Assembly: GCF_001424645.1 (NCBI RefSeq)
Contig: NZ_LMQR01000001.1
Coordinates: forward strand, 923,301-987,300
Origin: Frigoribacterium sp. Leaf415
GTDB taxonomy: Bacteria > Actinomycetota > Actinomycetes > Actinomycetales > Microbacteriaceae
Direction: 5' to 3'
DNA length: 64,000 nucleotides
Positions 2,264-61,209 of this stretch are shown here, piece by piece (the stretch's first letter is position 1; every line of letters begins with the position of its first letter). The translations under genes and the position numbers were made by a program. The notes beneath the pieces were generated by a model, which was given only the letters and a program-made list of their open reading frames with translations, was not told the DNA's origin and did no database searches.

Positions 2264-3007
2264 GTGGCGCACTTCTACCTGGTCGACGACCTGGTCGCCG
2301 CCGAGGTCGGCTCGACCGTCGAGCTGACCGGTTCCGAGGCTCGGCACGCGGTCACGGTCAGCCGTGTCCGGGTGGGCGAGGCGCTCACCCTCGGCAACGG
2401 TCGGGGCTTGGTGGTCCAGGGCGAGGTGACCGAGGCGGCGCCCGAGCAGCTGGTGCTGCTCGCGACGCGGGTGGCGCGGCACGAGCCGCCGACGACGCGG
2501 CTGGTCCTCGCCCAGGCCCTCGCCAAGGGCGACCGCGACGAGCTCGCGGTGCAGGCCGCGACCGAGCTCGGCGTCGACGAGATCGTGCCGTGGGCCGCGG
2601 CCCGCAGCATCTCCCGGTGGGAGGGCCCCAAGGTCGCCAAGGGGCTCACCCGCTGGTCGACGATCGTGCGCGAGGCGACCAAGCAGTCCATCCGTCCCTG
2701 GGCGCCCGAGGTGTCCGGGCTCGCGACGACGCGGCAGCTGGCCGAGCGCGCCTCCCGCGATCTCGTGCTCGTGCTCGAGCCGTCGGCCGAGCAGGCTCTC
2801 ACGGCGGTCGACCTGACGGCAGGAGGCGCGGTGCCCGACCGTGTCGTCGTGGTCGTCGGTCCCGAGGGCGGGGTGTCGCCCGCCGAGCTGCAGCAGCTCG
2901 CCGAGGCGGGTGCCCGCGCCGTGCGCCTCGGGGACGCCGTCCTGCGCACCTCCACGGCCGGTCCCGCCGCGCTCTCCGTCCTGAGCGCGCGTCTCGGCCG
3001 CTGGTGA
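2264..3007 (+). CDS. rsmE: 16S rRNA (uracil-1498-N3)-methyltransferase
   Basis: SPOUT-class methyltransferase that makes m3U1498 in the decoding centre of the 30S subunit. The 247 aa length is usual. An N-terminal PUA-like part (SEARHAVTVSRVRVGE) precedes the trefoil-knot domain, whose SAM-site signatures VVVVGPEGGVSP and LRTSTAGPAAL are visible near the C-terminus. The GTG at 2264 begins two bases after the dnaJ stop, indicating translational coupling. The dnaJ-rsmE pairing is common in actinobacteria and firmicutes. Confidence 0.93.
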   Translation: MAHFYLVDDLVAAEVGSTVELTGSEARHAVTVSRVRVGEALTLGNGRGLVVQGEVTEAAPEQLVLLATRVARHEPPTTRLVLAQALAKGDRDELAVQAATELGVDEIVPWAAARSISRWEGPKVAKGLTRWSTIVREATKQSIRPWAPEVSGLATTRQLAERASRDLVLVLEPSAEQALTAVDLTAGGAVPDRVVVVVGPEGGVSPAELQQLAEAGARAVRLGDAVLRTSTAGPAALSVLSARLGRW

Positions 3008-3044
3008 CCTCGACGCCCCCGTGGGCCGTGTCGGCGGTCGTCGC

Positions 3045-3050
3045 TACGAT
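3045..3050 (+). promoter_or_regulatory. Predicted -10 element, leaderless HIT-protein transcript
   Basis: TACGAT lies seven bases before the ATG at 3058, so transcription would begin at or next to the start codon. No clear -35 hexamer is visible. It supports 3058 over the in-frame ATG at 3049. Confidence 0.45.
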
Positions 3051-3057
3051 GGGCAGC

Positions 3058-3435
3058 ATGTCCGAGACCTCCGACGAGCCCACCGTCTTCAGCCGCATCG
3101 TCGCGCGCGAGATCCCCGCCGACATCGTGTTCGAGAGCGACACCGTCATCGCGTTCCGCGACATCGCGCCCCAGGCACCCGTCCACCTGCTCGTGGTGCC
3201 CAAGACCCAGGCGTACCGCGACGTCGTCGAACTCGCCGCGGGCGACCCGGCGCTGCTCGCCGAGCTGGTGGCGACCGCCTCCCGGCTCGCGGCCGACCCG
3301 GCGGCGTTCGGGGAACACTCCGGGTCCGAGTTCCGTTTGATCTTCAACACCGGCGCATCCGCCGGGCAGACCGTGTTCCACGTGCACGCCCATGTGCTCG
3401 GCGGACCCCTGGAGGAAGGCACCCTTGCCCACTAG
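3058..3435 (+). CDS. HIT family nucleotide-binding protein
   Basis: Small (125 aa) histidine-triad protein of the Hint branch, expected to hydrolyse nucleoside phosphoramidates or adenylates; the physiological substrate is unknown. The HIT motif is HVHAHV near residue 107, preceded by the family pattern FRLIFNTGASAGQTVFH. The ATG at 3058 is chosen because it follows a -10-like hexamer; an ATG at 3049 would add three residues. The stop overlaps the likely phoH start by 11 bases, so the two genes are coupled. Confidence 0.9.
   Translation: MSETSDEPTVFSRIVAREIPADIVFESDTVIAFRDIAPQAPVHLLVVPKTQAYRDVVELAAGDPALLAELVATASRLAADPAAFGEHSGSEFRLIFNTGASAGQTVFHVHAHVLGGPLEEGTLAH
3411..3420 (+). promoter_or_regulatory. 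Shine-Dalgarno site that fixes the phoH TTG start
   Basis: GGAGGAAGGC lies four to five bases before the TTG at 3425, inside the end of the HIT gene. Its strength and spacing favour the TTG over the ATG at 3392. Confidence 0.6.
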
Positions 3436-4540
3436 CGACACGAACGCCACCGGCCCCTCGACACCGACGACGGGCGACGACGTCCGGCGCGTCGACGTCA
3501 CCGTCGACGGCGTCGCCATGGTCCAGCTGCTGGGCCCGCAAGACCGCCTGCTCCGTGCGGTCGAGAAGCAGTACCCCGAGGTCCGCGTGCTCGTGCGCGG
3601 CAACGAGGTCACCCTCGAGGGGCCCTCGTCCGCCGTCGGCCGGGCCGAAGGGCTCGTAGACGAGCTCGTCTCGATGGTCCGGGGCGGCCACGACCTCGGC
3701 CCGGCCGAGGTCGCGACGTCGGCCCGTCTGCTCGACTCGGGGCAGGGCAGCCCGTCCGAGGTCTTCGGTCAGCCCATCGTCACCAGCCGCGGCAAGGGCG
3801 TCCGGGCGAAGACCCCGGGTCAGAAAGAGTACGTCGACGCGATCGACCAGCACACCATCACGTTCGGCGTCGGCCCGGCCGGTACGGGCAAGACCTACCT
3901 GGCCATGGCCAAGGCCGTCCAGGCGCTGCAGCGCCGCGAGGTCCAGCGGATCATCCTGACGCGTCCCGCGGTCGAGGCCGGCGAGCGGTTGGGGTTCCTG
4001 CCGGGCACGCTCACCGACAAGATCGACCCGTATCTCCGCCCGCTCTACGACGCGCTCAACGAGATGATGGACCCCGAGATCGTGCCCAAGCTGCTCGCGG
4101 CCGGCACCGTCGAGGTGGCCCCTCTCGCCTACATGCGCGGTCGCACCCTCAACGACGCGTTCGTCGTCCTCGACGAGGCGCAGAACACGACGCCCGAGCA
4201 GATGAAGATGTTCCTCACCCGTCTCGGCTTCGGCTCGCGCATGGTCGTGACGGGCGACGTCACCCAGGTCGACCTGCCCACCGGGGCCAGCGGCCTCCAG
4301 CTCGTCACGACGGTGCTCGACGGCATCGACGACATCCACTTCGCCCGTCTCACCAGCGACGACGTCGTGCGACACACGCTCGTCGGCCGCATCGTCGACG
4401 CGTACACGACCTACGACGCCGAGCGTCAGGCCCAGCAGCACCGCCGTCACGAGGCGGCCCACGACCAGGCCGAGTCGGGCAACCGCGCCGAGTCGCGGGC
4501 CGACGCCCGCGACCGCCTGCCCAAGAGAGGAACCCGGTGA
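3425..4540 (+). CDS. PhoH-like ATPase
   Basis: Cytoplasmic P-loop ATPase of the PhoH/YbeZ family, a helicase-like fold linked to RNA metabolism and to YbeY. The 371 aa protein has an N-terminal KH-like region, then Walker A GPAGTGKT near residue 149 and Walker B VVLDEAQN near residue 246. The C-terminus is a charged, Gln/His-rich tail that is probably disordered. The TTG start follows a strong Shine-Dalgarno. The stop overlaps the ybeY start (GTGA), the normal phoH-ybeY coupling. Confidence 0.92.
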   Translation: MPTSDTNATGPSTPTTGDDVRRVDVTVDGVAMVQLLGPQDRLLRAVEKQYPEVRVLVRGNEVTLEGPSSAVGRAEGLVDELVSMVRGGHDLGPAEVATSARLLDSGQGSPSEVFGQPIVTSRGKGVRAKTPGQKEYVDAIDQHTITFGVGPAGTGKTYLAMAKAVQALQRREVQRIILTRPAVEAGERLGFLPGTLTDKIDPYLRPLYDALNEMMDPEIVPKLLAAGTVEVAPLAYMRGRTLNDAFVVLDEAQNTTPEQMKMFLTRLGFGSRMVVTGDVTQVDLPTGASGLQLVTTVLDGIDDIHFARLTSDDVVRHTLVGRIVDAYTTYDAERQAQQHRRHEAAHDQAESGNRAESRADARDRLPKRGTR

Positions 4541-6365: not shown

Positions 6366-7304
6366 ATGTCGACCACCGGAGACGACTTCACCCCCTCGGC
6401 CGCGCCTCCTCGGGGGTCGACCTACCGAGCCGGGTTCGTCTCGTTCGTCGGGCGGCCCAACGTCGGCAAGTCGACGCTGACCAACGCCCTCGTGGGCCAG
6501 AAGGTGGCCATCACCTCGTCGAAGCCGCAGACGACCCGCCGGGCCATCCGCGGCATCGTGCACCAGGCGTCCGGTCAGCTGGTCCTGGTCGACACCCCGG
6601 GCATGCACCGTCCGCGGACGCTGCTCGGCGAGCGGCTCAACGACATCGTCCAGACCACGCTCGGCGACGTCGACGTGATCGGGTTCTGCGTGCCGGCCGA
6701 CGAGAAGCTGGGCCCGGGCGACCGGTTCATCAACGAGCAGCTCGACCAGTACCCGAGGGCCAAGAAGGTCGCGATCGTCACCAAGACCGACGCGACGTCG
6801 CGGCCCGCGGTCGCCGAGCAGTTGCTCGCGGTCAGTCGACTGCGCGACTGGGAGGCCATCATCCCGTTGTCGGCCGTCAGCGACGTGCAGCTCGACGTCC
6901 TGACCGCCGAGCTCATCAAGCTCATGCCGTTGTCGCAGCCGCTCTACCCGTCCGACGCGGTGACCGAAGAGGGCCTGACCGACCGGGTGGCCGAGTACGT
7001 CCGCGAGGCCGCGCTCGAGGGCGTGCAGGACGAGCTGCCGCACTCGCTCGCCGTGACGATCGACGACATGGTCGAGCGTGACGACAAGGACCTCCTCGAG
7101 ATCTACGCGAACCTGTTCGTCGAGCGGGACAGCCAGAAGGCCATCGTCATCGGCAAGGGCGGTCAGCGCCTGCGCGAGGTGGGCGAGCGTGCCCGGGCGC
7201 AGATCGAGCCGCTCGTCGGCAAGCAGGTGTTCCTGTCGATCCGCGTGAAGGTCGCCAAGGACTGGCAGCGCGACCCGAAGCAGCTCGGTCGGCTGGGGTT
7301 CTGA
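6366..7304 (+). CDS. era: GTPase Era
   Basis: Ribosome-assembly GTPase that binds the 3' end of 16S rRNA. The 312 aa protein shows G1 GRPNVGKST near residue 29, G3 DTPG, G4 in the variant form TKTD, and a C-terminal KH domain with VIGKGGQRL near residue 261. The ATG at 6366 follows GAAAGG. The N-terminal 20 residues are a low-complexity extension, and an AGGAGGCGCG motif lies on the opposite strand there. It ends the housekeeping run that begins with hrcA. Confidence 0.96.
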   Translation: MSTTGDDFTPSAAPPRGSTYRAGFVSFVGRPNVGKSTLTNALVGQKVAITSSKPQTTRRAIRGIVHQASGQLVLVDTPGMHRPRTLLGERLNDIVQTTLGDVDVIGFCVPADEKLGPGDRFINEQLDQYPRAKKVAIVTKTDATSRPAVAEQLLAVSRLRDWEAIIPLSAVSDVQLDVLTAELIKLMPLSQPLYPSDAVTEEGLTDRVAEYVREAALEGVQDELPHSLAVTIDDMVERDDKDLLEIYANLFVERDSQKAIVIGKGGQRLREVGERARAQIEPLVGKQVFLSIRVKVAKDWQRDPKQLGRLGF

Positions 7305-8703: not shown

Positions 8704-9392
8704 TCGACATGCCCGGCCGCTCGACGGCACCCATCCGCGTCGCGCTGGTCGACGACCAGGCCCTGTTCCGTGCGGGCATCAAAATGCTGGTCGGCTCGCA
8801 GCCCGACCTCGAGTTCGTGGGCGAGGCCAGCAACGGCGACGAGGGCGTGGCGATGGTCGCGCGCACCACGCCCGACGTCGTCCTGATGGACATCCGCATG
8901 CCCGTCATGGACGGCATCGCCGCCACCACCGCCGTCCTGGCGCAGGCCGAGGCGGCCTCCCGCCGTCCGCCCCGCATCATCGTGCTGACCACGTTCGACC
9001 TCGACGAGGCCGCCACCCGGGCCATCCGAGGAGGCGCGAGCGGTTTCGTCCTCAAGGACGCCGACCCCGAGTTCCTCCTCGCCGCCATCCGCACCGTGCA
9101 CGCGGGCAACGCCGTGATCGCGGCGTCCGCCACCCGTGAGCTCTTCGAGCACTTCGACGGACGCGCCTCGCGCGCCCGGGCCGTGCCCGAGTCGTTCGGC
9201 ACCCTCACCACCCGAGAACGCGACATCTTCGACCTCGCGGCGCGGGGCCTCAGCAACTCCGAGATCGCGTCGCGGGAGTTCCTCAGCGAGGCGACCGTCA
9301 AGACCCACATCAGTCGTGTGCTGTCGAAGCTGTCCCTGCGCGACCGGGTGCAGCTCGTGGTCTACGCGTACGAACACGGGCTCGCCGAGTAG
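8700..9392 (+). CDS. Response regulator, NarL/LuxR family
   Basis: Partner of the upstream kinase (230 aa). The receiver domain has an acidic pocket (VDDQ), the phospho-acceptor Asp in VVLMDIRMP at about residue 64, and the conserved Lys in FVLKD. The C-terminal LuxR helix-turn-helix reads LTTRERDIFDLAARGLSN through SEATVKTHISRVLSKL. ATG at 8700 overlaps the kinase stop; ATG at 8709 is an alternative. An AGGAGGCGCG motif at 9029 is embedded in its coding sequence. Confidence 0.93.
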   Translation: MIDMPGRSTAPIRVALVDDQALFRAGIKMLVGSQPDLEFVGEASNGDEGVAMVARTTPDVVLMDIRMPVMDGIAATTAVLAQAEAASRRPPRIIVLTTFDLDEAATRAIRGGASGFVLKDADPEFLLAAIRTVHAGNAVIAASATRELFEHFDGRASRARAVPESFGTLTTRERDIFDLAARGLSNSEIASREFLSEATVKTHISRVLSKLSLRDRVQLVVYAYEHGLAE

Positions 9393-10920: not shown

Positions 10921-13502
10921 GCGCCGACGTGACCGTGGCCGGCCCGGACGCACCGACTCCGCCCGACCCCCACGAGCCGGGGCGGGTGCGACAGGTCGCA
11001 GAGGGCATCGGCACCCGTGTGGTGGCGTTCGTCCGCGTCCGTCCCGTGAGTCTCGCGCTCGCGCTGCTGCTCGTCGTGCTGGCCGTCGCCTCGGGCAGCC
11101 TGACGCACGCTCCGAGCGAGCGACTCCGGGACCTCGTCGGAGCGGGTCTCGACCCGTTCGAGGACCGCACCTCGTGGCTGCTCGTCTTCGGCTCGGTGTT
11201 CTTCGCCGGCGGTCCCGCCCAACTCGTCCTGGCCGTGGTCGGCGTCCTCGTGCTCGTGGGCGCCGCCGAGCGCCGCATGGGCCGGCGCCACACGGTCGCG
11301 GCCTACCTCGTGACGGCCGTCGTGGCGACCGGCGTCGGCGTCGCGGTGCAGGCCCTGGGGCAGGCGGTCGGCGAGACCTGGGCCCTCGAGGTGGCCGCCG
11401 AGTCCACCCTCCACCCGCTCACGCCCGCCCTCGGCACGATCATGACCGCCAGCGCGTTCTTCGGGCCGCTCTGGCGCCGCCGCATCCGGTTGGTCGGCTT
11501 CTCGTTCGTGTTCGCCTTCGTGCTGTACGACGGGCATCCCTCGGGTCTCTACGCACTCCTGGGTGCCCTCGTCGGGCTCGTGTTCGGGGTGGTGCTGGCC
11601 GGTCCTCCCGTCGAGCGCGGGTGGCTGCGCAGCTCGCACCACGAGGTGCGCCGCCTCGCGTCGACCATCGTCGCGGTGACGGCGGTCGGTCCCGTCCTGA
11701 CCCTGCTCACCCGCAGCCCGATCGGGGCGCTCTCGCCCCTCGGCATGCTGTTCCGCGACGTCCTGCCGGGGCGGTCGCTCTCGGCCGCCTGCGCGGCTGC
11801 CGGACAGGGCGCACCCGACCGGCACGCGCCTCCCATCGGGGCCTGCGCGCGGGCCGCGGCCCTCGCCGGCATCGACGGCGTGCCGACCGTCTTGCTCAGC
11901 CTGCTGCCGCTGGCCGTCCTGCTCGTGTGTGCCTGGTACCTGCGGCGGGGTCGTCGCCTCGCCCTCGACGTGGCCGTCGCGGTCAACGGGCTGCTCGCCG
12001 TCTTCGCCGGCCTCTACTACGTGGTGTTGCCCGTCACGACCGACCCGGTCGTCGACCAGCCCCGTCACGTGGTCGAGAGGGTGGTGCTCGCCGTGGTGGC
12101 GGTCGCCGTTCCGGCCGCGGTCGCCGTCGGGCTGTTCTTCCTCCGTCGTCACTTCGGAGTCGGGGCCGAGGGGACGCGACGGCCGCGGTTCGCGCTCGTC
12201 GTCGTGCTGTCGGGTCTCGTGCTGGCCGTGACGTTCGCCGTCCTCGCATGGCTGGGGCGCGCCTCCTTCGTCCCGGCGATCGAACCGTGGACGCTGCTGC
12301 TCGACGTGCCCGAACGCTTCGTGCCGGTCGGGTTCGTCGGGCTCACCCGCATCGGGCCGGTGCCCGACGGCGGCGTCGTCCGGGCCGCGTTCGAGTGGGT
12401 GGGGCCGCTCTGGTGGCTCGTCGTGCTGGTCGGGCTCGTGGTGGGTGCCACACGGCCGGGCGACGTCCGTCCCGACGCGGCGCGTGCCCAGGTGCGCGAG
12501 ATCGTGCACCGGGGGACCCCGGGCACGCTGTCGCACATGGCCCTCTGGGAGGGCAACCGGTACTGGTTCACGGCCGACGGTCGCGCCGCGGTCGCCTATC
12601 GCGTCGTCACGGGCATCGCCATCACCACGGGTGAGCCGCTGTGCTCGGCCGACCGGCTCCCCGAGGTGACCCGCGAGTTCGCCCGCTGGTGCGACGACCA
12701 AGGCCTCACCCCGGTCTTCTACAGCGTGCGGGGTGAGCTCTCGCCCCTGTACGCCGAGATGGGCTGGGCGACGCTGCCCGTCGGCGAGGAGACCGTGCTC
12801 CACCCGGCCACCTTCGCCATGACGGGCAAGAAGTGGCAGGACGTCCGGTCGAGCATCAACCGCGCGACGAAGAACGGGGTCCGGGCCGAGTGGACCCGCT
12901 ACGCCGACCTCCGCCCCGCGGTCGCCCGCCAGATCGGCGAGATCAGCGAGCAGTGGGTCGCCGAGAAGAACCTGCCCGAGATGGGCTTCACCCTCGGCGG
13001 CGTGGACGAGTTGCGCGACCCCGACGTGGCGCTGATGCTCGCCCTGGACGAGGACGACTCGGTCCAGGCCGTGACGAGCTGGCTGCCCTCCTGGCGCGAC
13101 GGAGAGGTCGTCGGCTGGACACTCGACTTCATGCGCCGTCGACCGGACAGCATGAACGGCGTGATGGAGTTCGTCATCGCCTCGTCGGCCCTGGCCATGA
13201 AAGAACAGGGCGTCGAGTTCCTCAGCCTCTCGGCGGCACCCCTCGCGACCAGTGCGCCGTCGGACGGCCCGGCGACGCAGACCGAGCGCGTGCTGACCTT
13301 CCTCGGGCGCGTGCTCGAGCCGGCCTACGGATTCCAGACCTTGCTGACCTTCAAGAAGAAGTTCCAGCCCGAGTTCGTGCCGCTCGTCATGGCCTTCCCC
13401 GATCCCGTGCAGCTGCCGGCCATCGGCACGGCCCTCGGCCGCGCCTACCTGCCCGACCTCTCGGTCGGGGCCGTCGTGCGGCTCGTCCGCACGGTGGTCT
13501 GA
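10917..13502 (+). CDS. MprF-like aminoacyl-lipid synthase (DUF2156) with rhomboid-like N-terminus
   Basis: 861 aa membrane protein. Residues 1-520 contain about a dozen hydrophobic segments, the first group resembling a rhomboid-type fold. From about residue 530 to the end is a DUF2156 domain (GTLSHMALWEGNRYWF, SSINRATKNGV), the catalytic part of proteins that move an amino acid from aminoacyl-tRNA onto phosphatidylglycerol. Such modification lowers envelope negative charge and raises resistance to cationic peptides. The amino acid used cannot be read from sequence. The GTG at 10917 overlaps the esterase stop. Confidence 0.8.
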   Translation: MSADVTVAGPDAPTPPDPHEPGRVRQVAEGIGTRVVAFVRVRPVSLALALLLVVLAVASGSLTHAPSERLRDLVGAGLDPFEDRTSWLLVFGSVFFAGGPAQLVLAVVGVLVLVGAAERRMGRRHTVAAYLVTAVVATGVGVAVQALGQAVGETWALEVAAESTLHPLTPALGTIMTASAFFGPLWRRRIRLVGFSFVFAFVLYDGHPSGLYALLGALVGLVFGVVLAGPPVERGWLRSSHHEVRRLASTIVAVTAVGPVLTLLTRSPIGALSPLGMLFRDVLPGRSLSAACAAAGQGAPDRHAPPIGACARAAALAGIDGVPTVLLSLLPLAVLLVCAWYLRRGRRLALDVAVAVNGLLAVFAGLYYVVLPVTTDPVVDQPRHVVERVVLAVVAVAVPAAVAVGLFFLRRHFGVGAEGTRRPRFALVVVLSGLVLAVTFAVLAWLGRASFVPAIEPWTLLLDVPERFVPVGFVGLTRIGPVPDGGVVRAAFEWVGPLWWLVVLVGLVVGATRPGDVRPDAARAQVREIVHRGTPGTLSHMALWEGNRYWFTADGRAAVAYRVVTGIAITTGEPLCSADRLPEVTREFARWCDDQGLTPVFYSVRGELSPLYAEMGWATLPVGEETVLHPATFAMTGKKWQDVRSSINRATKNGVRAEWTRYADLRPAVARQIGEISEQWVAEKNLPEMGFTLGGVDELRDPDVALMLALDEDDSVQAVTSWLPSWRDGEVVGWTLDFMRRRPDSMNGVMEFVIASSALAMKEQGVEFLSLSAAPLATSAPSDGPATQTERVLTFLGRVLEPAYGFQTLLTFKKKFQPEFVPLVMAFPDPVQLPAIGTALGRAYLPDLSVGAVVRLVRTVV

Positions 13503-15470
<1,968 letters not shown>

Positions 15471-15692: not shown

Positions 15693-15696
15693 GGGT

Positions 15697-15782: not shown

Positions 15783-15786
15783 GGGT

Positions 15787-18927: not shown

Positions 18928-19884
18928 CTAACCCGGCGCCACCGACGGCTCGCCCCGTCGGACCGGCACGAGGCCCAGCGCGTCGCCGTCCACCTGCTCG
19001 AAGGCGTCCAGGACCGCGCGCACGCTCGGCACGCGGTCGCCGCCCCGCCCGTGGACGACGTGCACCACCCGGGCGAGGCCCTCGTCCAGGCCGACCACGC
19101 GCACCCCGGCAGGCACGGCGGCGGACACCAACGACAGCCCCGGCAGCAGCGCGACGCCGAGCCCCGCCGCGACGAGACCGAGCACGGCCAGGGCGTTGTC
19201 CGTCTCGAGCACGATCTCGGGCTCGAACCCGGACGCGGCGCAGGTGGCGAGCAGGTGGCCCCGGCAGCGGGGGCATCCGCCGATCCACCTCTCGTCCGCC
19301 AGGCCGGCGAAGTCGTCGCCGCCTGCGAACGGGTGCGCCGTCGGCAGGACCAGCACCGTGCGGTCGACGAAGGAGGCGCGGTGCAGCAGCCCGTCGAGGT
19401 CGCGTTCGCCCCCGGTGTCGCCGCCGTGGCGGAAGGTGACCGCGACGTCCGCCGAGCCGTCCCGCAGTCGTGCCAGCGCCTCCGGGGGTTCCGCCTCGAC
19501 GTAGTCGACCGTCAGGCCGGGGTGGCGGTCGCGTAGCCGTGACAGCACGTCGGGGACGATCGTGGACGACGCGCTGGGGAAGCCGGCCAGTGTGACGCGG
19601 CCCGTGGCGACGCCGCCCAGGGCGTCGAGGTCCTGCCGCGCGGCGTCGAGGGCCGCCTGCACGTGCACGGCGTGGGCCGCGAGCCTCTGACCGGCCTCGG
19701 TGAGGGCGACGCCGCGTCCCGCACGCAGCACGAGCGGCTGACCGACCTGGCGTTCGGCCCGCCGGAGCTGCTGGCTGACGGCGGGTTGGCTGTAGCCGAG
19801 CAGGGCGGCGGCCGCCGTGATCGTGCCGGTGTCCGCGACGGCGCGGACGACGCGCAGCGACGCGAGATCGAGATCGTCGGTCAT
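18928..19884 (-). CDS. LysR family transcriptional regulator
   Basis: 318 aa. The winged helix-turn-helix occupies residues 1-65 (SLRVVRAVADTGTITAAAALLGYSQPAVSQQ pattern), followed by a LysR substrate-binding domain with an unusual CPRCRGHLLATC cysteine cluster near residue 205. It is divergent from an aminotransferase gene, with 81 bp between starts, so that gene is the likely target. On the minus strand TATGAT lies six bases before the ATG, suggesting a leaderless message. Confidence 0.9.
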   Translation of the reverse strand: MTDDLDLASLRVVRAVADTGTITAAAALLGYSQPAVSQQLRRAERQVGQPLVLRAGRGVALTEAGQRLAAHAVHVQAALDAARQDLDALGGVATGRVTLAGFPSASSTIVPDVLSRLRDRHPGLTVDYVEAEPPEALARLRDGSADVAVTFRHGGDTGGERDLDGLLHRASFVDRTVLVLPTAHPFAGGDDFAGLADERWIGGCPRCRGHLLATCAASGFEPEIVLETDNALAVLGLVAAGLGVALLPGLSLVSAAVPAGVRVVGLDEGLARVVHVVHGRGGDRVPSVRAVLDAFEQVDGDALGLVPVRRGEPSVAPG

Positions 19885-19965: not shown

Positions 19966-21006
19966 ATGACCGAGTCCCGTCCCGACCTCTTCGCCCCTGC
20001 TCCGGGGTACCTCGCGGCCTGCACCATGGGCCTGCCGATGCGGTCGACGGTCGAGGCGCTGCGAACCGACCTCGACCGGTGGTCGTCCGGTCGGGCCGGG
20101 CCCGTCGCCTACGGCGCCGTCGTCGAGGAGGCGCGCGCGGCCTTCGCCCGGCTGGCCCGGGTCGACGTCGGCCGCGTCGCCATCGCGTCCCAGACGTCGG
20201 CGATGGTCGCGGTGATCGCGGCCTCGGTCCCGGACGGCGCCGAGGTGCTCGTGCCCACGGGCGACTTCAGCTCGATCGTCTACCCCTTCGTGGTGCAGGA
20301 GGCGCGGGGCGTCCGGGTGCGGAGCGTCCCGCTCGACGAGGTGGCCGGCTCGGTCGGGCCCGACACGCACCTCGTGGCCTGGTCGGCCGTCCAGTCCGCC
20401 ACGGGCGAGGTCGCCGACGACGCGGCCATCGTCGCCGCGGCGGCCCGTCACGGGGCGCTGACGCTGTGCGACCTGACCCAGGCCGCCGGCGTGCGACCCG
20501 TCGACGCCTCGCGGTACGACGCCAGCGTCACGCACGCCTACAAGTGGTTGTGCTGCCCGCGCGGGGTGGCGTTCCTCACCCTGGGGGAGCGGCTGCAGCG
20601 CGTCATGGTGCCGGCGCAGGCCGGTTGGTACGCGGGCGACGACGTCTGGGGCTCGTGCTACGGCCCCGAGATGCGGCTCGCCGCGGACGCCCGGGCGTTC
20701 GACGTCTCGCCCGCCTGGCAGGCCTGGGCCGGGGCCCTGCCCGCGCTCCGCACGTTCGCCGGGCTCGACGCCGACGAGACCTGGGCCCACGCCGCCGGGA
20801 CGGGCGACGCGCTCTGCTCGCGGCTCGGGATCGAGGCGCAGGGCCGCGCGATCGTGACCTGGGCCGATCCCGACGGACGCGACCAGCGCCTCCTCGGCGA
20901 CGCCGGTCTCGTGGTCTCGGGGCGCGCCGGTCGCGTCCGCGTGGCGTTCCACCTCTGGAACGACGAGAGCGACGTCGAGGCCGTCGCCGTCGCGCTCGGC
21001 CGGTGA
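19966..21006 (+). CDS. Aminotransferase class V-fold PLP enzyme
   Basis: 346 aa PLP-dependent enzyme of fold type I, class V. The PLP lysine is K193 in THAYKWLCCPRG, with the upstream Asp in LCDLTQAAG. It resembles kynureninase and isopenicillin-epimerase type proteins but substrate cannot be assigned. ATG at 19966 follows GGGAGGAG. It is divergently paired with the LysR gene. Two AGGAGGCGCG motifs lie in its first third (20126 and 20297). Confidence 0.82.
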   Translation: MTESRPDLFAPAPGYLAACTMGLPMRSTVEALRTDLDRWSSGRAGPVAYGAVVEEARAAFARLARVDVGRVAIASQTSAMVAVIAASVPDGAEVLVPTGDFSSIVYPFVVQEARGVRVRSVPLDEVAGSVGPDTHLVAWSAVQSATGEVADDAAIVAAAARHGALTLCDLTQAAGVRPVDASRYDASVTHAYKWLCCPRGVAFLTLGERLQRVMVPAQAGWYAGDDVWGSCYGPEMRLAADARAFDVSPAWQAWAGALPALRTFAGLDADETWAHAAGTGDALCSRLGIEAQGRAIVTWADPDGRDQRLLGDAGLVVSGRAGRVRVAFHLWNDESDVEAVAVALGR

Positions 21007-22777: not shown

Positions 22778-22846
22778 CGCCCCCCGCGCGCGCGCCCGCC
22801 CCCGGTGCCCACGCACCAGGTCGCAGCCGGTCCGCCCGCCCGGTCC

Positions 22847-24187: not shown

Positions 24188-24856
24188 GTGACCGCAGACT
24201 CCGCCACCCCGTCCGCGACCGTCAAGGTCGACATCTGGTCCGACATCGCCTGCCCGTGGTGCTTCATCGGCAAGCGCAAGTTCGAGGAGGCCGTGCGACG
24301 TTTCGGCGGCCCCGTCGAGGTCGAGTACCACTCGTTCGAGCTGTCTCCCGACACCCCGGTCGACTTCGAGGGCGACGAGGTCGACTTCCTCTCGAAGCAC
24401 AAGGGCATGCCCGCCGACCAGGTCCGCGGCATGCTCGACACCGTCGCCGGCATCGCGTCCGAGGTCGGCCTCGCCTACGACTTCGAGCACCTGCAGCACA
24501 CCAACACGGTCAAGGCGCACGAGCTGCTGCACTTCGCCAAGGCGAACGGTCGTCAGACCGAGATGAAGGAACGCCTCCTCCACGCCTACTTCGAGGAGGG
24601 CCGCCACGTGGGCCGCGTGGACGATCTCGTCGCGCTGGCCGGCGAGGTCGGCCTCGACGAGCAGGAGGCGCGCGAGGCACTCGAGACCGGACGTCACCTC
24701 GACGACGTGCGGGCCGACCAGGCCCAGGCGCAGGCCTTCGGCATCACCGGAGTCCCGTTCTTCGTCCTCGACGGCAAGTACGGCATCTCGGGCGCACAAG
24801 CTCCCGAGACCTTCGTGCAGGCCCTCGAGCAGGTCGCCTCCGAGGTGGCCCGATGA
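24188..24856 (+). CDS. DsbA family oxidoreductase (FrnE-like)
   Basis: 222 aa thioredoxin-fold protein with no signal peptide, so cytoplasmic. The redox motif CPWC is at residues 22-25 and the cis-Pro loop GVPFFVLDGKYGISGAQ is near residue 190, as in FrnE/polyketide-biosynthesis dithiol isomerases. The GTG at 24188 gives the family N-terminus KVDIWSDIACPWC. Its stop overlaps the small downstream ORF by four bases. Confidence 0.9.
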   Translation: MTADSATPSATVKVDIWSDIACPWCFIGKRKFEEAVRRFGGPVEVEYHSFELSPDTPVDFEGDEVDFLSKHKGMPADQVRGMLDTVAGIASEVGLAYDFEHLQHTNTVKAHELLHFAKANGRQTEMKERLLHAYFEEGRHVGRVDDLVALAGEVGLDEQEAREALETGRHLDDVRADQAQAQAFGITGVPFFVLDGKYGISGAQAPETFVQALEQVASEVAR

Positions 24857-28038: not shown

Positions 28039-28080
28039 CGAGGAGGCGCGGGTCCTCCCCAGCCCCACCGCGCCTCCTCG
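28039..28080 (+). terminator. Inverted AGGAGGCGCG pair hairpin, 3' of dgt
   Basis: A perfect 13-bp stem (CGAGGAGGCGCGG and complement at 28068-28080) with a 16-nt loop begins seven bases after the dgt stop and precedes the dnaG promoter. No T-tract. Confidence 0.55.
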
Positions 28081-38146: not shown

Positions 38147-38189
38147 CGAAGGAGGCGCGTCCTGCGGTTCGCAGGACGCGCCTCCTTCG
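38147..38189. terminator. Inverted AGGAGGCGCG pair: 20-bp perfect hairpin
   Basis: CGAAGGAGGCGCGTCCTGCG (38147-38166) and its exact complement (38170-38189) flank a 3-nt loop. It lies between tRNA-Asn and the end of the convergent def gene, and would serve as a bidirectional terminator although T-tracts are weak. Confidence 0.65.
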
Positions 38190-42359: not shown

Positions 42360-42363
42360 GCGT

Positions 42364-42459: not shown

Positions 42460-42463
42460 ACGG

Positions 42464-43868: not shown

Positions 43869-43887
43869 GACACGCAGGAGGCGCGCC

Positions 43888-44529
43888 ATGAGCACCAAGA
43901 AGATCGTCGCCCTGTCCGCGGGGCTGAGCCAGCCCTCGTCCACCCGTCTGTTGGCCGACCGCCTGGTCGAGGCCACCACGCGTGACCTCGTCGGCCGCGG
44001 CTCGTTCGTCGAGGTCGAGGTCGGAGAGCTGCGGGACCTCGCTCACGAGGTGACGGACGCGATGCTCACCGGCTTCGCGCCTCCTGCCCTCGCCGAGGCG
44101 CTCGAGAAGGTGACGAGCGCCGACGGCGTGATCGCGGTCACGCCCGTCTTCTCGTCCTCGTACAGCGGCCTGTTCAAGTCGTTCGTCGACGTGATGGACC
44201 ACAAGGCGCTCACCGGTACGCCCGTGCTGATCGGGGCGACCGGTGGCACGGCCCGCCACTCGCTCGCCCTCGAGTACGCGGTGCGACCTCTGTTCGCCTA
44301 CCTCCAGGCCGTCGTCGTGCCCACCTCGGTGTTCGCGGCGTCCGAGGACTGGGGAGAGGGCGACGGCACCTCGACCACGCTGCCCGAGCGCGTGACCCGT
44401 GCCGCGGGGGAGTTCGCCGAGCTCGTCGCCCGGCACGAAGGCGCTCTCGACGACCCCTTCGCGGCGGTCGTCCCCTTCGACGAACAGCTGCGACGCCTCG
44501 CCGTGGGCGGCGACGACCCGCAGCCCTGA
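43888..44529 (+). CDS. NADPH-dependent FMN reductase (CE1759-like)
   Basis: 213 aa flavodoxin-fold reductase with the FMN loop SAGLSQPSSTRLLADRL and VTPVFSSSYSGLFKSFVDVMD, expected to supply FMNH2 to the upstream monooxygenase. It starts 19 bases after that gene. Its Shine-Dalgarno lies in AGGAGGCGCG at 43876, so here the iterated 10-mer doubles as a ribosome-binding site. A reverse copy of the motif lies at 44076 in the coding sequence. Confidence 0.9.
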   Translation: MSTKKIVALSAGLSQPSSTRLLADRLVEATTRDLVGRGSFVEVEVGELRDLAHEVTDAMLTGFAPPALAEALEKVTSADGVIAVTPVFSSSYSGLFKSFVDVMDHKALTGTPVLIGATGGTARHSLALEYAVRPLFAYLQAVVVPTSVFAASEDWGEGDGTSTTLPERVTRAAGEFAELVARHEGALDDPFAAVVPFDEQLRRLAVGGDDPQP

Positions 44530-44538: not shown

Positions 44539-44602
44539 CGAGGAGGCGCGGTGCCGGTCTCGACCACGTCCCGCCCGTCGGGGCATGAACCGCGCCTCCT
44601 CG
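44539..44602 (+). terminator. Inverted AGGAGGCGCG pair hairpin, 3' of the FMN reductase
   Basis: A perfect 14-bp stem (CGAGGAGGCGCGGT and complement at 44589-44602) with a 36-nt loop lies 9 bases after the stop and 32 before the next start. The loop is longer than in the other four pairs. Confidence 0.5.
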
Positions 44603-45564: not shown

Positions 45565-47226
45565 GTGTTCTTCCTGCTGCGTCGACTGCCCGACGGCGAC
45601 GTCGAGCTGACGCGGTACGAGCGTGGCCCGTCGGGCCGTCTCGAGGTGATGGGCGTCGAGACGATCGCCGCGGCCGACCTGCCGACGCGCGTCGTCGGGC
45701 TCGAGCGCGAGGCCTCGCCCCGCTGGGTCTGGGACGACACCCCGCGGTGGTACCCGCGCCTCCTCGACGCCGGGGTCACGGTGGCCCGCTGCGTCGACCT
45801 CCGGCTCGTCCACGCGATCCTGCGGCGGTCGACGGCGGCTCCCGGCTTCCCGGCCGGAGGCGCGGCTCCCGGCCCGTGGGACGTCGCCCAGGCGGTGCCC
45901 GGCGAGTCCGACGGCCTGTTCGAGGTCGTGCCCGACTCGTTGCCCGACCCGGCGGGCGAGTTCCTCGCCCAACGCGAGGCGGTCGAGGCGTCGCCGACCC
46001 GGGGTCGGCTCGAACTGCTCGTCGCCGCCGAGTCCACCGGAGCCCTGATCGCGGTCGAGATGCGACACCGGGGCATCCCGTGGTCGCCCCTTGTGCACGA
46101 CGAGCTCTTGACCGCCGCGCTCGGGCCGAGGCCCTCCCCGGGTGAGCGCCCGGCCCGCATGCGCGCGGCCCTCGACGAGGTGCGGCAGGCCCTCGACGCC
46201 CCTGACCTCAACCCCGACTCCCCGGCCGAGTTGATCCGTGCGCTGAACCGTGCCGGTGTGCTCGTGCAGTCGACGCGTCAGTGGGAGCTCCAACGGCACG
46301 AGCACCCCGCGATCGAGCCGCTGCTGCGCTACAAGAAGATGCAGCGGCTGCTCGTGGCCAACGGCTGGGCCTGGCTCGACGCCTGGGTGCACGGCGGGCG
46401 CTTCCGCCCCGACTACGTGCCGGGCGGCGTCGTCACCGGTCGCTGGGCGACGAGCGGAGGAGGCGCGTTGCAGCTCCCCAGGGCGGTCCGCGGCGCCGTC
46501 GTGGCCGACCCGGGCTGGAAGCTCGTGGTCGCCGACGCCTCGCAACTCGAGCCGCGCATCCTCACCGGCCTGTCGGGCGACCGCTCGATGGCGCGGGCGG
46601 GGTCCGGCGACCTCTACGAGGGCATCGTCGCCAGCGGAGCCGTCGCGACCCGCGCCGAGGCCAAGGTCGCGATGCTCGGCGCGATGTACGGCGCGACCCA
46701 GGGCGAGAGCGGCCGGCTCGTGCCGCGCCTGGCCCGACGGTTCCCCGACGCCATGGCACTCGTCGAGACGGCGGCCCGCACGGGTGAGGCCGGGGGAGTC
46801 GTCGACACGCTGCTCGGGCGCAGCTCACCGCGGCCGTCCGACGACCCCGACGCCGCCGGTGGTGCCGGGGCGGGCGCCCTGCCGCCCGAGATGGGCGTAC
46901 GGCCGGCCGATCGCGACGCGCGTTCGTGGGGTCGGTTCACGCGCAACTTCGTGGTCCAAGGCACCGCCGCCGAGTGGGCTCTCTGTTGGATGGGTGCCCT
47001 ACGTCGGCGCCTGCACGAGAGGTGGGGAACCGGCGTCCCGGCTCCCCACTTCGTGTTCTTCCTGCACGACGAGGTGGTCGTGCACGCACCGGCTGCCGCG
47101 GCCGACGAGGTCGCGGCGCTGGTCGCCGAGAGCGCGGTCGAGGCCGGTCGTCTGCTGTTCGGCGATGCCCCGGTCACCTTCCCGGTGACGGTCGCCGTCG
47201 TGGACGACTACTCGCAGGCGAAGTGA
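45565..47226 (+). CDS. PolA-like DNA polymerase with degenerate exonuclease domain
   Basis: 553 aa family A polymerase found widely in actinobacteria besides PolA and annotated as bifunctional 3'-5' exonuclease/polymerase. The N-terminal third is exonuclease-like but lacks clear DEDD acidic motifs. The polymerase domain has motif A VVADASQLEPR (Asp near 324), an O-helix RAEAKVAMLGAMYG where the usual Phe is Leu, and motif C LHDEVVV near residue 500. It may act in repair. AGGAGGCGCG motifs lie at 45755 (reverse) and 46458. Confidence 0.85.
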   Translation: MFFLLRRLPDGDVELTRYERGPSGRLEVMGVETIAAADLPTRVVGLEREASPRWVWDDTPRWYPRLLDAGVTVARCVDLRLVHAILRRSTAAPGFPAGGAAPGPWDVAQAVPGESDGLFEVVPDSLPDPAGEFLAQREAVEASPTRGRLELLVAAESTGALIAVEMRHRGIPWSPLVHDELLTAALGPRPSPGERPARMRAALDEVRQALDAPDLNPDSPAELIRALNRAGVLVQSTRQWELQRHEHPAIEPLLRYKKMQRLLVANGWAWLDAWVHGGRFRPDYVPGGVVTGRWATSGGGALQLPRAVRGAVVADPGWKLVVADASQLEPRILTGLSGDRSMARAGSGDLYEGIVASGAVATRAEAKVAMLGAMYGATQGESGRLVPRLARRFPDAMALVETAARTGEAGGVVDTLLGRSSPRPSDDPDAAGGAGAGALPPEMGVRPADRDARSWGRFTRNFVVQGTAAEWALCWMGALRRRLHERWGTGVPAPHFVFFLHDEVVVHAPAAAADEVAALVAESAVEAGRLLFGDAPVTFPVTVAVVDDYSQAK

Positions 47227-47977: not shown

Positions 47978-48017
47978 AGGAGGCGCGGGTGGCGTGATCA
48001 CGCCACCCGCGCCTCCT
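47978..48017. terminator. 40-bp perfect palindrome from an inverted AGGAGGCGCG pair
   Basis: AGGAGGCGCGGGTGGCGTGA is followed immediately by its exact complement, giving a 20-bp arm palindrome centred on TGATCA. It sits in the 106-bp gap between the convergent DUF3145 and fabF genes, the position of a bidirectional terminator. Confidence 0.7.
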
Positions 48018-56509: not shown

Positions 56510-56593
56510 GGCCTCGGGCGACGGACCAGGAGGCGCGGGTCGGCTCGCTCACCCGCTAACCTGTACTCGCTCGCCCGGCTCGTCCCGGCGCGA

Positions 56594-58140: not shown

Positions 58141-59001
58141 ATGGACGGACGACCACAGGAGCCGGTCGACGGGGCGCAGGTCGAGGGCGCAGCGACCGAG
58201 CACACGACGACGACCGGTCGGGGCAGCGGCGTCGCGGTCGCCCTGACGTTGCCGGTGGCCCTCGTCGTGGGCTGGATCGTGCAGCTGACGGCCGTCCTGT
58301 CGCGCCTCCTCGAGCCGACCGACGATCCGACGGGCGGCTTCGGCCTCACCGGGTGGCTCGTCGTCGGTGCCGCGATCGGCGTCGGCGTGCCGCTGGTCGC
58401 GTTCGTCGGGCAGGTGCGCGCCCGGCGCCGCGACCCGTCGCTCTCGGGCGTGGCCTTCGTCGTGGCCACCCTCGTGCTCGTGGTCGGACTCGTGACCTGT
58501 GGACTCGCCGTCGTCCTGCAGTTCTCCTCGGTGGCGGCGGACCGGTACCGGACGGCGCAGCCGCCGTCCGTGGCCGAGCAGCGGTACACGGGCGAGGAGG
58601 CGGGCGACGAGCTGCGCGCGCTCGGTGACGACACCGTCCGAGCCCTCGGCGGCGATCCGACCGAGGGCTTGCGCGCCGACGGCTCGACCGTCCGGGCGTA
58701 CAGCGAGGAGTGCCTCCTCGACAACGACGATCCCGGGGTCGTGTGGAGCTACTCGTACTCCGCGGACGGCCTCGTCGACGCGTCCGGCGACCCACTGCTG
58801 CCCGACGGGGTCCACGTGCTGCCGGGCACCCGCACCGACCTCGACGGCGTGCGCGAGCTCTGGTCGAGCGAGGGGATCGGGGCCGAGCAGGACCTGGTCG
58901 ACTTCGACCAGATCGTCCCCGAGGCCGACTGGCTCGAGCGATGGTCGTACGTACGGGCCGGGCCGACGGTCGACATCACGACGATCTGCCTGGGGCCGTG
59001 A
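58141..59001 (+). CDS. Membrane protein of unknown function
   Basis: 286 aa with about three transmembrane helices in residues 30-130 and a soluble, acidic C-terminal domain (residues 135-286), probably extracytoplasmic. Two Cys (EECLLDND and TTICLGP) could form a disulfide. ATG at 58141 follows AGGGGGC. No family is recognised. A reverse AGGAGGCGCG (58301) falls in the first helix-loop region. Confidence 0.6.
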   Translation: MDGRPQEPVDGAQVEGAATEHTTTTGRGSGVAVALTLPVALVVGWIVQLTAVLSRLLEPTDDPTGGFGLTGWLVVGAAIGVGVPLVAFVGQVRARRRDPSLSGVAFVVATLVLVVGLVTCGLAVVLQFSSVAADRYRTAQPPSVAEQRYTGEEAGDELRALGDDTVRALGGDPTEGLRADGSTVRAYSEECLLDNDDPGVVWSYSYSADGLVDASGDPLLPDGVHVLPGTRTDLDGVRELWSSEGIGAEQDLVDFDQIVPEADWLERWSYVRAGPTVDITTICLGP

Positions 59002-59074: not shown

Positions 59075-60043
59075 GTGACCACGCGCCTCACTCGGATGCT
59101 CTCCCGCGCCTCCCGCACCTCCCGCGACACCGTCCGGGTGCCGCTCGCCGCGAGGCTCGTCCTGCCACGGGCGGCGGTCCCGGTGTTCCTCCGGGCGACC
59201 GGGGCGAACCGCACCTTCGTCACCGAGGCCGGGGCGCGTCGGCGCATCCGACGAGCGTCCCTCCGCCCGGCACCGTACGGCCCGCCTGCCGTCCTCCGGG
59301 GCGACGTCCGGGTCGACGTCGAGCAGCGCGGCGGCTGGCCCGTCTACACGATCAGGCGGCGGGACGGCGCGTCGCGCGGCACCGTCGTCTACGCCCACGG
59401 CGGCGGCTGGGTGGGCGAGATCGTGTCGCAGCACTGGCACCTCGTCGCCCAGCTCGCCGCCGAGGCCCGCACGACGGTCGTCCTGCCGATCTACCCGCTG
59501 GTCCCGTACGGGACGGCTGAGGAGGCGCGGGTCGGCATCCTCGACCTGGTCGCCTCGGCAGACGGTCCGGTCGCCCTCGCGGGGGACTCGGCCGGCGGTC
59601 AGATCGTACTGTCGGCCGCCCTGTCGTTGCGTGTCGCGGGCGTCGTCGTCGCCCGGACGGTGCTGATCGCCCCGGCACTCGACCTCACCTGGAGCAACCC
59701 CCGCATCCCCGAGGTGCAGCCGACCGACCCGTGGCTCGGGACGCCCGGCGGACGCGTGCTCGCCGAGCACTGGCGGGGCGAGCTCGACCTGCGCGACCCC
59801 GTCGTCAGCCCCCTGTTCGGCGACCTCGCGGGGCTGGGCCCGGTGACGGTGTTCACGGGGACGCGAGACGTCCTGAACCCCGACGCGCACCTCCTTCGCG
59901 ACCGTGCCGCGGCGGCCGGCGTCGAGCTCGAGTGGCACGAAGGGGAGGGCGACGTGCACGCCTACCCGCTGCTGCCCACCCGATCGGGTCGTGCCGCCCG
60001 CGCGCAGATCGTCCGCACGCTCCGCCGCTCGCTCGCGACCTGA
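59075..60043 (+). CDS. Alpha/beta hydrolase, HSL/esterase family
   Basis: 322 aa carboxylesterase-like protein. The oxyanion-hole motif HGGGW follows VVYAHG, the nucleophile is in LAGDSAGGQIV, and the C-terminal Asp (TGTRDVLNPDA) and His (GDVHAYPLL) complete the triad. Substrate unknown. GTG at 59075 is chosen for its -10 spacing; ATG at 59096 is possible. An AGGAGGCGCG motif (59520) encodes part of TAEEARVG. Confidence 0.85.
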   Translation: MTTRLTRMLSRASRTSRDTVRVPLAARLVLPRAAVPVFLRATGANRTFVTEAGARRRIRRASLRPAPYGPPAVLRGDVRVDVEQRGGWPVYTIRRRDGASRGTVVYAHGGGWVGEIVSQHWHLVAQLAAEARTTVVLPIYPLVPYGTAEEARVGILDLVASADGPVALAGDSAGGQIVLSAALSLRVAGVVVARTVLIAPALDLTWSNPRIPEVQPTDPWLGTPGGRVLAEHWRGELDLRDPVVSPLFGDLAGLGPVTVFTGTRDVLNPDAHLLRDRAAAAGVELEWHEGEGDVHAYPLLPTRSGRAARAQIVRTLRRSLAT

Positions 60044-60104: not shown

Positions 60105-60386
60105 TCAGCGGCGAGCGGCGCTGCGGCGACCCGAGACGGTGACCCAGATCACGAGGACGACGATGGCGCCGATGATCGAGCCGATGATGCCGGCGGGCTG
60201 GAAGAAGCCGTCCGTCGGGTCGTGCTGGAACAGCAGGAACCCGAGGAACCCTCCGACGAACGAACCGATGATGCCCAGCAGGATCGTCATGGCGATCGAG
60301 AGGCTCTGGCGACCCGGGACGACCGCGCGGGCGATGAACCCTGCGATGAGGCCGACGACGAGCAAGCTGATGATGAGACCGATCAT
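60105..60386 (-). CDS. GlsB/YeaQ/YmgE family stress-response membrane protein
   Basis: 93 aa, three hydrophobic helices with the family pattern GFIARAVVPGRQSLSIAMTILLGIIGSFVGGFLG. Such transglycosylase-associated proteins are often induced by stress. The ATG at 60386 has AAGGAGAA upstream. It is divergent from the response regulator at 60506, with a 38-bp palindrome between them. Confidence 0.88.
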   Translation of the reverse strand: MIGLIISLLVVGLIAGFIARAVVPGRQSLSIAMTILLGIIGSFVGGFLGFLLFQHDPTDGFFQPAGIIGSIIGAIVVLVIWVTVSGRRSAARR

Positions 60387-60455
60387 GGTGTTCTCCTTCC
60401 GGGAGAGATGGGCGACCGGCACCGTCGGTGCCGTGGTGTCGCAGGACCCAGCAGA

Positions 60456-60493
60456 CCACCCCTGGAGGTGTGGCGGCACACCCCTCGGGGTGG
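60456..60493. promoter_or_regulatory. 38-bp imperfect palindrome between divergent stress and regulator genes
   Basis: Two 19-bp arms match at 15 of 19 positions, with outer arms CCACCCC/GGGGTGG and inner arms GGTGT/ACACC. It ends 12 bases before the response regulator ATG and lies 70 bases from the YeaQ-like start. It may be an operator for the orphan regulator. Confidence 0.5.
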
Positions 60494-60505
60494 GATGGTG
60501 TCCTC

Positions 60506-61174
60506 ATGCCCCTCGCTCCGACCCGGTCGATCACCGTCGCACTCGTCGACGACTACGACGTCGTGCTCGCCGGTCTCGCCCACATGTTCGACCGCTACCG
60601 CGACCGGGTCGTCGTCGCCGAGATCGACGCCACGACGTCCCTGTCCGACCGGGTCGACGTCGTCCTCTACGACTCGTTCGCGCAGCCGGAGTCCGACCAC
60701 CACGAGCTCGCCGAACTGGTCGCCAACCCGGCGGCCGGCAAGGTCGTCGTCTACACCTGGAACTTCCACCCCGAGCTCGTCGAGGCGGCTCTCGCGCAGG
60801 GCGTGCACGGGTACCTGTCGAAGACCCTCGCCGCCCGCGAGCTCGTGGAGGCGCTCGAAGCGGTCCATCGCGGAGAGCAGGTCGTCAGCGAGGTGCGGGG
60901 GCGCGCACCGAGCGCGCCGGGCCTCGACTGGCCCGGCCGCCGCGAGGGCATCACCGACCGTGAGTCCGAGATCCTGGCCCTGATCACCCAGGGTAAGAGC
61001 AACGCCGAGGTCGCGGCGCTGACCTACCTCAGCCCGAACACGGTCAAGTCCTACATCCGATCGGTCTACCGGAGGATCGGCGCGACGAGCCGGACGCAGG
61101 CCGTGCTGTGGGGCGTCCAGAACGGCTTCCGCCCGGACCACCACCGCATCGACCATTGGCTCGGCGGCCCGTAG
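60506..61174 (+). CDS. Orphan response regulator, LuxR family
   Basis: 222 aa. The receiver domain is divergent: VDDYD acidic pocket, Asp in VVLYDSFAQ, Thr in VVVYTWNF, and Lys in YLSKTL are present, but the MP motif after the phospho-Asp is missing. The C-terminal HTH (ITDRESEILALITQGKSNAEVA through NTVKSYIRSVYRRIG) is intact. No histidine kinase is adjacent. ATG at 60506. It probably controls the divergent YeaQ-like gene or itself through the palindrome. Confidence 0.85.
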   Translation: MPLAPTRSITVALVDDYDVVLAGLAHMFDRYRDRVVVAEIDATTSLSDRVDVVLYDSFAQPESDHHELAELVANPAAGKVVVYTWNFHPELVEAALAQGVHGYLSKTLAARELVEALEAVHRGEQVVSEVRGRAPSAPGLDWPGRREGITDRESEILALITQGKSNAEVAALTYLSPNTVKSYIRSVYRRIGATSRTQAVLWGVQNGFRPDHHRIDHWLGGP

Positions 61175-61209
61175 GAGGCGCGCCGCGGCCTGGTCGACGG
61201 ACGCTCGGC

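Follow-up and report, generated by a model that had tools for sequence, protein, structure and literature searches.

We examined a 64,000-nucleotide stretch of the genome of Frigoribacterium sp. Leaf415 (contig NZ_LMQR01000001.1, positions 923,301 to 987,300; hereafter ‘the window’), in which the 10-mer AGGAGGCGCG occurs in 30 exact copies, 18 on the plus strand and 12 on the minus strand. From the abundance, form, distribution and sharing of this word, described below, we consider it probable that AGGAGGCGCG, with its core GGAGGCGC and its preferred extended form AGGAGGCGCGGGTCG, serves Frigoribacterium as a DNA uptake signal and is read by a pilus-linked receptor. An initial annotation of the window had reported 30 copies on both strands where composition predicts fewer than one. 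A recount returned the same number at the same coordinates, and the expectation was a mean of 0.70 copies (maximum 3) in 100 dinucleotide-preserving shuffles of the window and 0.51 copies under an order-3 Markov model.

The word is equally conspicuous in the genome as a whole. A scan of all 3,423,183 bases (3.42 Mb in four contigs) returned 1,570 exact copies, 796 forward and 774 reverse, far above the 15 (9 and 6) found for a control word consisting of the same letters in reversed order. This corresponds to a density of ~0.46 exact copies per kb, and every one of 38 sampled chromosome segments carries copies. The idea that contigs C2 and C3 might be free of the word was dropped when 33 copies were found in 60 kb of the former and 17 in 40 kb of the latter. 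We regard the iteration of AGGAGGCGCG as confirmed, and as a real and strong observation.

Within 464 kb examined for the form of the word, the 8-mer GGAGGCGC emerges as the strongest unit, flanked by graded preferences: A is favoured at the preceding base and G at the two following bases, and weaker preferences extend to ~18 positions. Variants of AGGAGGCGCG carrying one substitution at positions 2–9 are rare (0–10 copies each versus 193 perfect copies, near or under Markov expectation), whereas variants at position 1 (C 52, G 30 and T 9 copies) and position 10 (T 24, C 12 and A 10) exceed expectation. A count of near-matches, as proposed in the initial annotation, was made in a sample of 847.3 kb of contig C1, in which genes were called with a home-made codon-based caller. 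The perfect 10-mer was present there 364 times and its 30 one-mismatch words 370 times in sum, versus 2 perfect and 142 one-mismatch copies for the reversed word. The corresponding numbers for the 9-mer form were 537 and 752 (control, 30 and 750), and for the 8-mer form 693 and 1,906. Summed over its one-mismatch words, the 9-mer has nearly the same count as its control, which points to a background set by composition.

The copies in this sample are unevenly distributed between genes and the spaces that separate them. Coding sequence holds 213 of the 364 copies and intergenic sequence the other 151, the latter in 12% of the DNA, so that density is 1.507 per kb between genes versus 0.285 per kb within them (a 5.3-fold difference). 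Intergenic density is highest between convergent genes (1.93 copies per kb), followed by tandem (1.61) and divergent (0.95) arrangements. Intergenic pieces longer than 30 nt contain 147 copies versus 0.8–1.6 expected by Markov models (~95- to 190-fold). The coding copies lie on the gene's own strand in 95 cases and on the opposite strand in 118, and they fall in several reading frames, as the initial annotation had stated for the window and as our gene calls confirmed. It had also argued that codon bias is insufficient to explain them, and this held: shuffling synonymous codons within genes left a mean of 28.8 copies (maximum 36 in 30 shuffles; in a rerun, mean 30.0 and maximum 39 in 20 shuffles).

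Copies on opposite strands also lie close together more often than a simple random estimate predicts. We found 26 opposite-strand pairs of neighbours within 60 bp, 19 pointing inward and 7 outward, versus an expectation of ~4.6 in total (~2.3 of each kind), and 23 of these pairs lie clear of any called gene; same-strand neighbours formed 9 such pairs versus ~4.7 expected. Once pairs within 100 bp are merged, the gaps between copies are slightly more regular than random (coefficient of variation 0.894 versus 0.996, a value as low being reached in 2% of 500 simulations). This effect is weak, and counts in 5-kb bins are Poisson-like (variance/mean 1.00).

Comparison with related genera drew on a family sample of 249 Microbacteriaceae genomes, taken from a larger group and comprising five Frigoribacterium and 244 genomes of 84 other genera. 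All five Frigoribacterium are rich in the word (1,570, 730, 952, 892 and 857 copies; controls, 15 to 48). The 244 others are mostly near the control level, and the highest of them, genome G055, has 216 copies versus 75 for its control. Within the family sample the word is thus present at a high level only in Frigoribacterium. The AceE protein encoded in the window likewise places its source in the genus Frigoribacterium: among the best 80 matches it shares 92% identity with the AceE of Frigoribacterium sp. ACAM 257, and Curtobacterium follows at 84%. Samples of the other Frigoribacterium genomes contain the core GGAGGCGC at 0.6–1.3 per kb, 4- to 7-fold above expectation, with G at position 9 less favoured (0.41–0.65 versus 0.77).

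The positions of the copies, as opposed to their density, turn over between species. We aligned the window to the 80 kb downstream of comEC in the four other Frigoribacterium genomes, of which 39–51 kb of the window could be aligned at 82–83% identity; copies belonging to intergenic pairs were mostly unalignable or fell in gapped alignment. Among alignable sites, exact copies were found at 3 of 21, 3 of 20, 4 of 18 and 5 of 21 in the four genomes, and three coding copies are exact in all of them (see table). Related species sometimes carry versions with one or two substitutions at such sites. Since 10 letters at 82% identity would remain unchanged ~14% of the time by chance, the sites themselves show little conservation, although their density is maintained.

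A search for competence genes, suggested in the initial annotation, found comEC, a comEA-like gene and dprA. The comEC gene lies ~9 kb upstream of the window and matches its model over cut-off; directly ahead of it is the comEA-like gene (HHH_3 and SLBB of Pfam and TIGR00426, all over cut-off; TIGR01259 under), and dprA is at C1:650600, also over cut-off. By eye, the comEC frame (C1:912617-916102) continues without a stop into sequence resembling holA (DNA polymerase III delta), which could be a fusion or merely an open frame in high-GC DNA. A type IVa pilus operon is found at C1:2408698-2420946, beside genes that resemble rpoC and rpoB by eye. It contains pilT and pilM (both over cut-off), a pilB-like gene (TIGR02538 at 4.9e-188, under the curated cut-off), pilC-like and pilA-like (pilin) genes, a prepilin peptidase (pilD-like), a minor pilin of 229 aa, a 471-aa gene weakly similar to PilV and a 593-aa gene for which no family match was found. 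In a search of the genome for pilin signatures, the pilA-like and 229-aa genes were the only ones to match. The 229-aa protein is basic (isoelectric point 10.4), has relatives in Frigoribacterium and, in diverged form, in Curtobacterium, and is a candidate for the receptor. In addition to the type IVa operon, the genome encodes one further T2SSE-family ATPase, which perhaps belongs to a tight adherence (Tad) system.

From these observations we infer uptake specificity, a receptor and molecular drive, which could be connected in the following way. A surface receptor, most simply a type IVa minor pilin, would bind double-stranded DNA bearing the word, and PilT-driven retraction would deliver that DNA to ComEA. 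ComEC would then transfer one strand into the cell, where DprA and RecA would recombine it. Alleles bearing the word would be taken up preferentially, and recombination would in this way build up, and afterwards maintain, many perfect copies at all sites that can tolerate the word; tolerated sites would be densest between genes, often as terminator-like inverted pairs. Among the alternatives named in the initial annotation, an uptake signal, which was its leading idea, fits best, and the word would act in the manner of the uptake signals of Haemophilus (USS) and Neisseria (DUS).

Several observations weigh against an uptake signal. Parity between perfect and one-mismatch words is seen for the 10-mer and not for the 9-mer or 8-mer forms, and the density of ~0.46 exact copies per kb is half that published for a known signal. 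Density also climbs with GC content, from 2.0 per 10 kb under 68% to ~5.2 over 72% (Spearman 0.43), a trend that could arise from composition alone or from a scarcity of copies in acquired DNA. Nor is the core entirely restricted to Frigoribacterium, given that 80 kb near comEC in G055 contains 41 cores and 7 exact words, compared with 47–52 cores and 10–16 exact words in the same region of each of the four other Frigoribacterium, and that TGGAGGCG is 3.4-fold enriched in 120 kb of G055 (52 versus 15.5). Neither comEC, which is present in 244 of the 249 family genomes (and in all 14 of a selected set), nor a pilB-like match, present in 125 of 249 including all five Frigoribacterium (none over the curated cut-off), predicts which genomes carry the word; the presence of either gene was accordingly discarded as a predictor of which word a genome has. 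The 229-aa minor pilin is as yet a candidate receptor only, and a literature search found, within the collection covered, no paper joining Frigoribacterium with natural competence. G055 itself, for which the nearest of the named AceE loci compared is that of Leifsonia sp. Leaf336, was not counted as a second carrier: GGAGGCG is enriched about twofold in its 120 kb (197 versus 99.6) and TGGAGGCG 3.4-fold, without a clear flank signature, and we read its signal as background or as a weak relative; it may yet be a weak carrier.

The main rival to an uptake signal is an unoriented binding site for a chromosomal protein, involved in nucleoid organisation or marking a hotspot of gene conversion or repair, and kept by selection or biased conversion. 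We judge this unlikely. The equal use of the two strands and the presence of copies in all 38 sampled segments are consistent with such a site, as are the differently spelled words of other actinobacteria described below, some of them in genomes without a pilB match, which a general function predicts. Sites of regulatory proteins are, however, looser in consensus according to the available part of an earlier analysis (PMC1626085), whereas here single variants number 0–10 against 193 perfect copies. The turnover of positions between species also argues against a chromosomal-protein site, and inverted pairs outside genes are the pattern of known uptake signals.

A further rival is an oriented signal resembling chi or the FtsK-orienting polar sequences (KOPS), which would serve recombination or the segregation of chromosomes; the initial annotation had put forward a chi-like site as an alternative. 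AGGAGGCGCG is like these signals in being a short and abundant chromosomal word with a strong consensus. Chi and KOPS are strand-biased. To assign replication strands we used the position of dnaA (C1:2768661-2769986) and placed the terminus near 1.15 Mb, where the strand that carries most genes changes, leaving out the origin-spanning stretch L134 with its 5 copies; the leading strand then has 180 copies of the 847-kb sample and the lagging strand 179. The word therefore does not fit either signal. The coding copies on both strands of their genes and the inverted pairs point in the same direction, and we consider an oriented signal highly improbable.

The three remaining alternatives deserve scarcely any weight. 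An origin of the word as a by-product, through codon usage, terminators and Shine-Dalgarno sites, would be in keeping with its AGGAGG, which is an ideal Shine-Dalgarno core, with the 14 of the 364 sites that are in ribosome-binding position, and with the folding of the pairs as terminator-like hairpins. Synonymous shuffles, however, account for ~29 of the 213 coding copies, which are found on both strands; intergenic copies exceed Markov expectation ~95- to 190-fold, and no such level is reached in the other genera of the family. Such a by-product is refuted as the main cause, and these uses look secondary. Nothing was found in favour of a word tied to a methyltransferase or restriction system; the graded preference across ~18 positions, which is unlike a modification site, speaks against it, and genomes usually avoid restriction sites instead of accumulating them. 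If the word were a very short self-copying element, this would explain why perfect copies rival the one-mismatch words in number, but the flanks share nothing beyond graded preferences, and alignable sites in relatives sometimes differ by one or two substitutions (most intergenic pairs were unalignable, and copying may have occurred there).

Other iterated words are present in related genomes. CGGATGCCGC, counted in the form GCGGCATCCG, reaches hundreds of copies in many Microbacteriaceae genomes and up to 2,441 in G142, with 1,702 in G102 and 1,358 in G063 as further examples; G001, G025, G029, G060, G215 and others are also rich in it. The five Frigoribacterium genomes are near control level for this family word (36/53, 31/53, 31/48, 42/35 and 30/49, word/control). 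Its counts are about ten times those of synonymous shuffles in the two genomes compared (119 versus 12.25 in G063, 42 versus 4.05 in G142). A third word, GTATGCCGCG, occurs 1,197 times versus 6 for its control in Phycicoccus elongatus (G249; L104, L193-L204), where 62 coding copies compare with 1.9 by synonymous shuffling, and 330 times versus 16 in Humibacillus (G250), where at least 2 inverted pairs 20 bp apart are among the matches listed; four other genomes in that search have 1–16 copies. The intergenic enrichment of these other words is 1.43, 1.92 and 2.39 (0.83 for the 8-mer GGATGCCG in G063), and close pairs are few for the family and Phycicoccus words, so that both show the hallmarks of an uptake signal less fully. 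Small samples of genera bearing pilB also contain the possible words GCAGGATGCC (g5, L179-L180), GGATCCTGC (g47, L187) and CGGCATCTCCG (g50, L185).

The genomes G057, G060, G142 and G215 are rich in CGGATGCCGC and have no pilB match, a further point against a pilus-based reading of such words in general: a type IVa pilus cannot be the general reader of the family word, which may be read through a different pilus, for instance one of the Flp/Tad type used in Micrococcus luteus, or have another role. The occurrence of different words in different genera suggests dialects, and GGATGCCGCG, GTATGCCGCG and GGAGGCGCG appear by eye to be related. We see an even chance that Actinobacteria have uptake dialects of their own, with an older word of the form G(G/T)ATGCCGC in many Microbacteriaceae (CGGATGCCGC) as well as in Phycicoccus and Humibacillus (GTATGCCGCG), and that Frigoribacterium switched to GGAGGCGCG and lost the family word. 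Sequence-selective transformation would in that case influence how genes move within one of the major phyla of Gram-positive bacteria.

The individual copies of AGGAGGCGCG in the window are listed in the table; 17 of the 30 are coding and 13 intergenic. The initial annotation had described inverted pairs that form hairpins at gene ends. All five pairs are indeed intergenic and fold, with z-scores of −2.33, −2.91, −3.86, −9.16 and −9.23, the first two being modest. Four of them begin 8–50 nt after a stop codon, whereas the pair at 38150 is 282 nt downstream of a plus-strand gene, and a minus-strand gene ends 26 nt away from it. Avoidance of the strongly conserved fab/aceE block had been claimed as well: a gap of 8.5 kb does exist, and the presence of aceE in it was confirmed, but the gap is not significant on its own because ~0.7 such gaps are expected among 30 copies (mean gap 2.24 kb).

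Copies of AGGAGGCGCG in the window, from an exact-word scan and the gene calls made in this analysis
Feature	Positions	Strand	Remarks
Copy, coding	2821..2830	+	rsmE
Copy, coding	6401..6410	-	
Copy, coding	9029..9038	+	
Copy, coding	12258..12267	-	similarity of gene to MprF/LysX under curated cut-offs
Inverted pair, intergenic hairpin	13519..13557	13519 plus, 13548 minus	16 nt after stop codon
Copy, coding	19371..19380	+	
Copy, coding	20126..20135	+	
Copy, coding	20297..20306	+	
Copy, coding	24663..24672	+	
Inverted pair, intergenic hairpin	28041..28078	28041 plus, 28069 minus	8 nt after stop codon
Copy, coding	29466..29475	-	
Copy, coding	34589..34598	+	ABC transporter ATPase; exact in 4/4 other Frigoribacterium
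Copy, coding	36871..36880	+	exact in 4/4 other Frigoribacterium
Inverted pair, near-perfect intergenic hairpin	38150..38186	38150 plus, 38177 minus	flanked by tRNA gene (37982-38054) and end of minus-strand gene
Copy, coding	39900..39909	-	
Copy, ribosome-binding position	43876..43885	+	ahead of gene called at 43888
Copy, coding	44076..44085	-	
Inverted pair, intergenic hairpin	44541..44600	44541 plus, 44591 minus	11 nt after stop codon
Copy, coding	45755..45764	-	exact in 4/4 other Frigoribacterium
Copy, coding	46458..46467	+	
Inverted pair, near-perfect intergenic hairpin	47978..48017	47978 plus, 48008 minus	50 nt after stop codon
Copy, intergenic	56528..56537	+	ahead of tRNA gene (56594-56666)
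Copy, coding	58301..58310	-	
Copy, coding	59520..59529	+	
Copy at gene end, counted intergenic	61173..61182	+	gene called to 61174

Two other kinds of repeat were observed. Repeats of the AGGAGTTGCC type, oriented either way, form clusters in the window at 15607-15872, 22692-22858, 23906-24003 and 42043-42559; GGAGTTGCCGAC occurs 13 times in these clusters, which are partly 90-bp and 100-bp tandem arrays. The source genome (G000) also contains a palindromic interspersed element of ~56 bp that resembles repetitive extragenic palindromic (REP) elements; its ends are TCGTGACATCTCG and its stem is GCCGCTCAC. The element is found at L015:18388-18443, L022:10802-10857, L023:9674-9729 and three places in L028, and single ends of it are present in L010, L019, L149 and elsewhere.

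An uptake word in this branch of bacteria would be unexpected. The accessible portion of a 2025 paper names the Neisseriaceae and Pasteurellaceae as the only families known to do this (PMC12616744), that of a 2023 paper states that none is reported for mycobacteria (PMC10526031), and our literature search, which covered titles and abstract openings and left most subscription journals outside its reach, found no actinobacterial uptake word. If AGGAGGCGCG is such a signal, it would be a third, independent case, in high-GC Gram-positive bacteria with genus-specific words, implying that uptake signals evolve repeatedly. It would also provide a fresh system for receptor discovery, and adding the right word to DNA would offer a practical route to transformation of plant- and soil-associated actinobacteria.

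The closest parallels are with the two established systems. The DNA uptake sequences (DUS) of Neisseriaceae are 10-mers present in 943 to 3,603 copies per genome in cases of a dominant dialect; their dialects track phylogeny, intergenic sites are permissive, and inverted pairs occur at terminators, as set out in the part of that study consulted (PMC3630211). To the extent of that account, AGGAGGCGCG is similar in its length, its copy range, its intergenic sites and its inverted pairs at terminators. It differs in its spelling and in its high-GC Gram-positive host, in which no ComP orthologue was identified, and its role in uptake is a predicted one. The uptake signal sequences (USS) of Pasteurellaceae have no orientation bias, form close pairs of opposite orientation, prefer non-coding DNA and are of one type per subclade, with perfect copies rivalling singly mismatched ones and a density of ~1 per kb, again as described in the available text (PMC1626085). 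AGGAGGCGCG shares with the USS, so described, its lack of orientation, its pairs, its non-coding bias, its sharing within a genus and, weakly, its regular spacing, and its perfect copies are about as numerous as the singly mismatched ones; it is a different word, has ~0.46 exact copies per kb rather than ~1, and shows an excess of perfect copies that reaches parity only. Transformation of Micrococcus luteus offers a third comparison. Like Frigoribacterium it is an actinobacterium with comEC and comEA (a comEA-like gene in Frigoribacterium), but its transformation depends on Flp/Tad pili, where Frigoribacterium has a type IVa operon, and the portion of that report available mentions no uptake word (PMC6370729).

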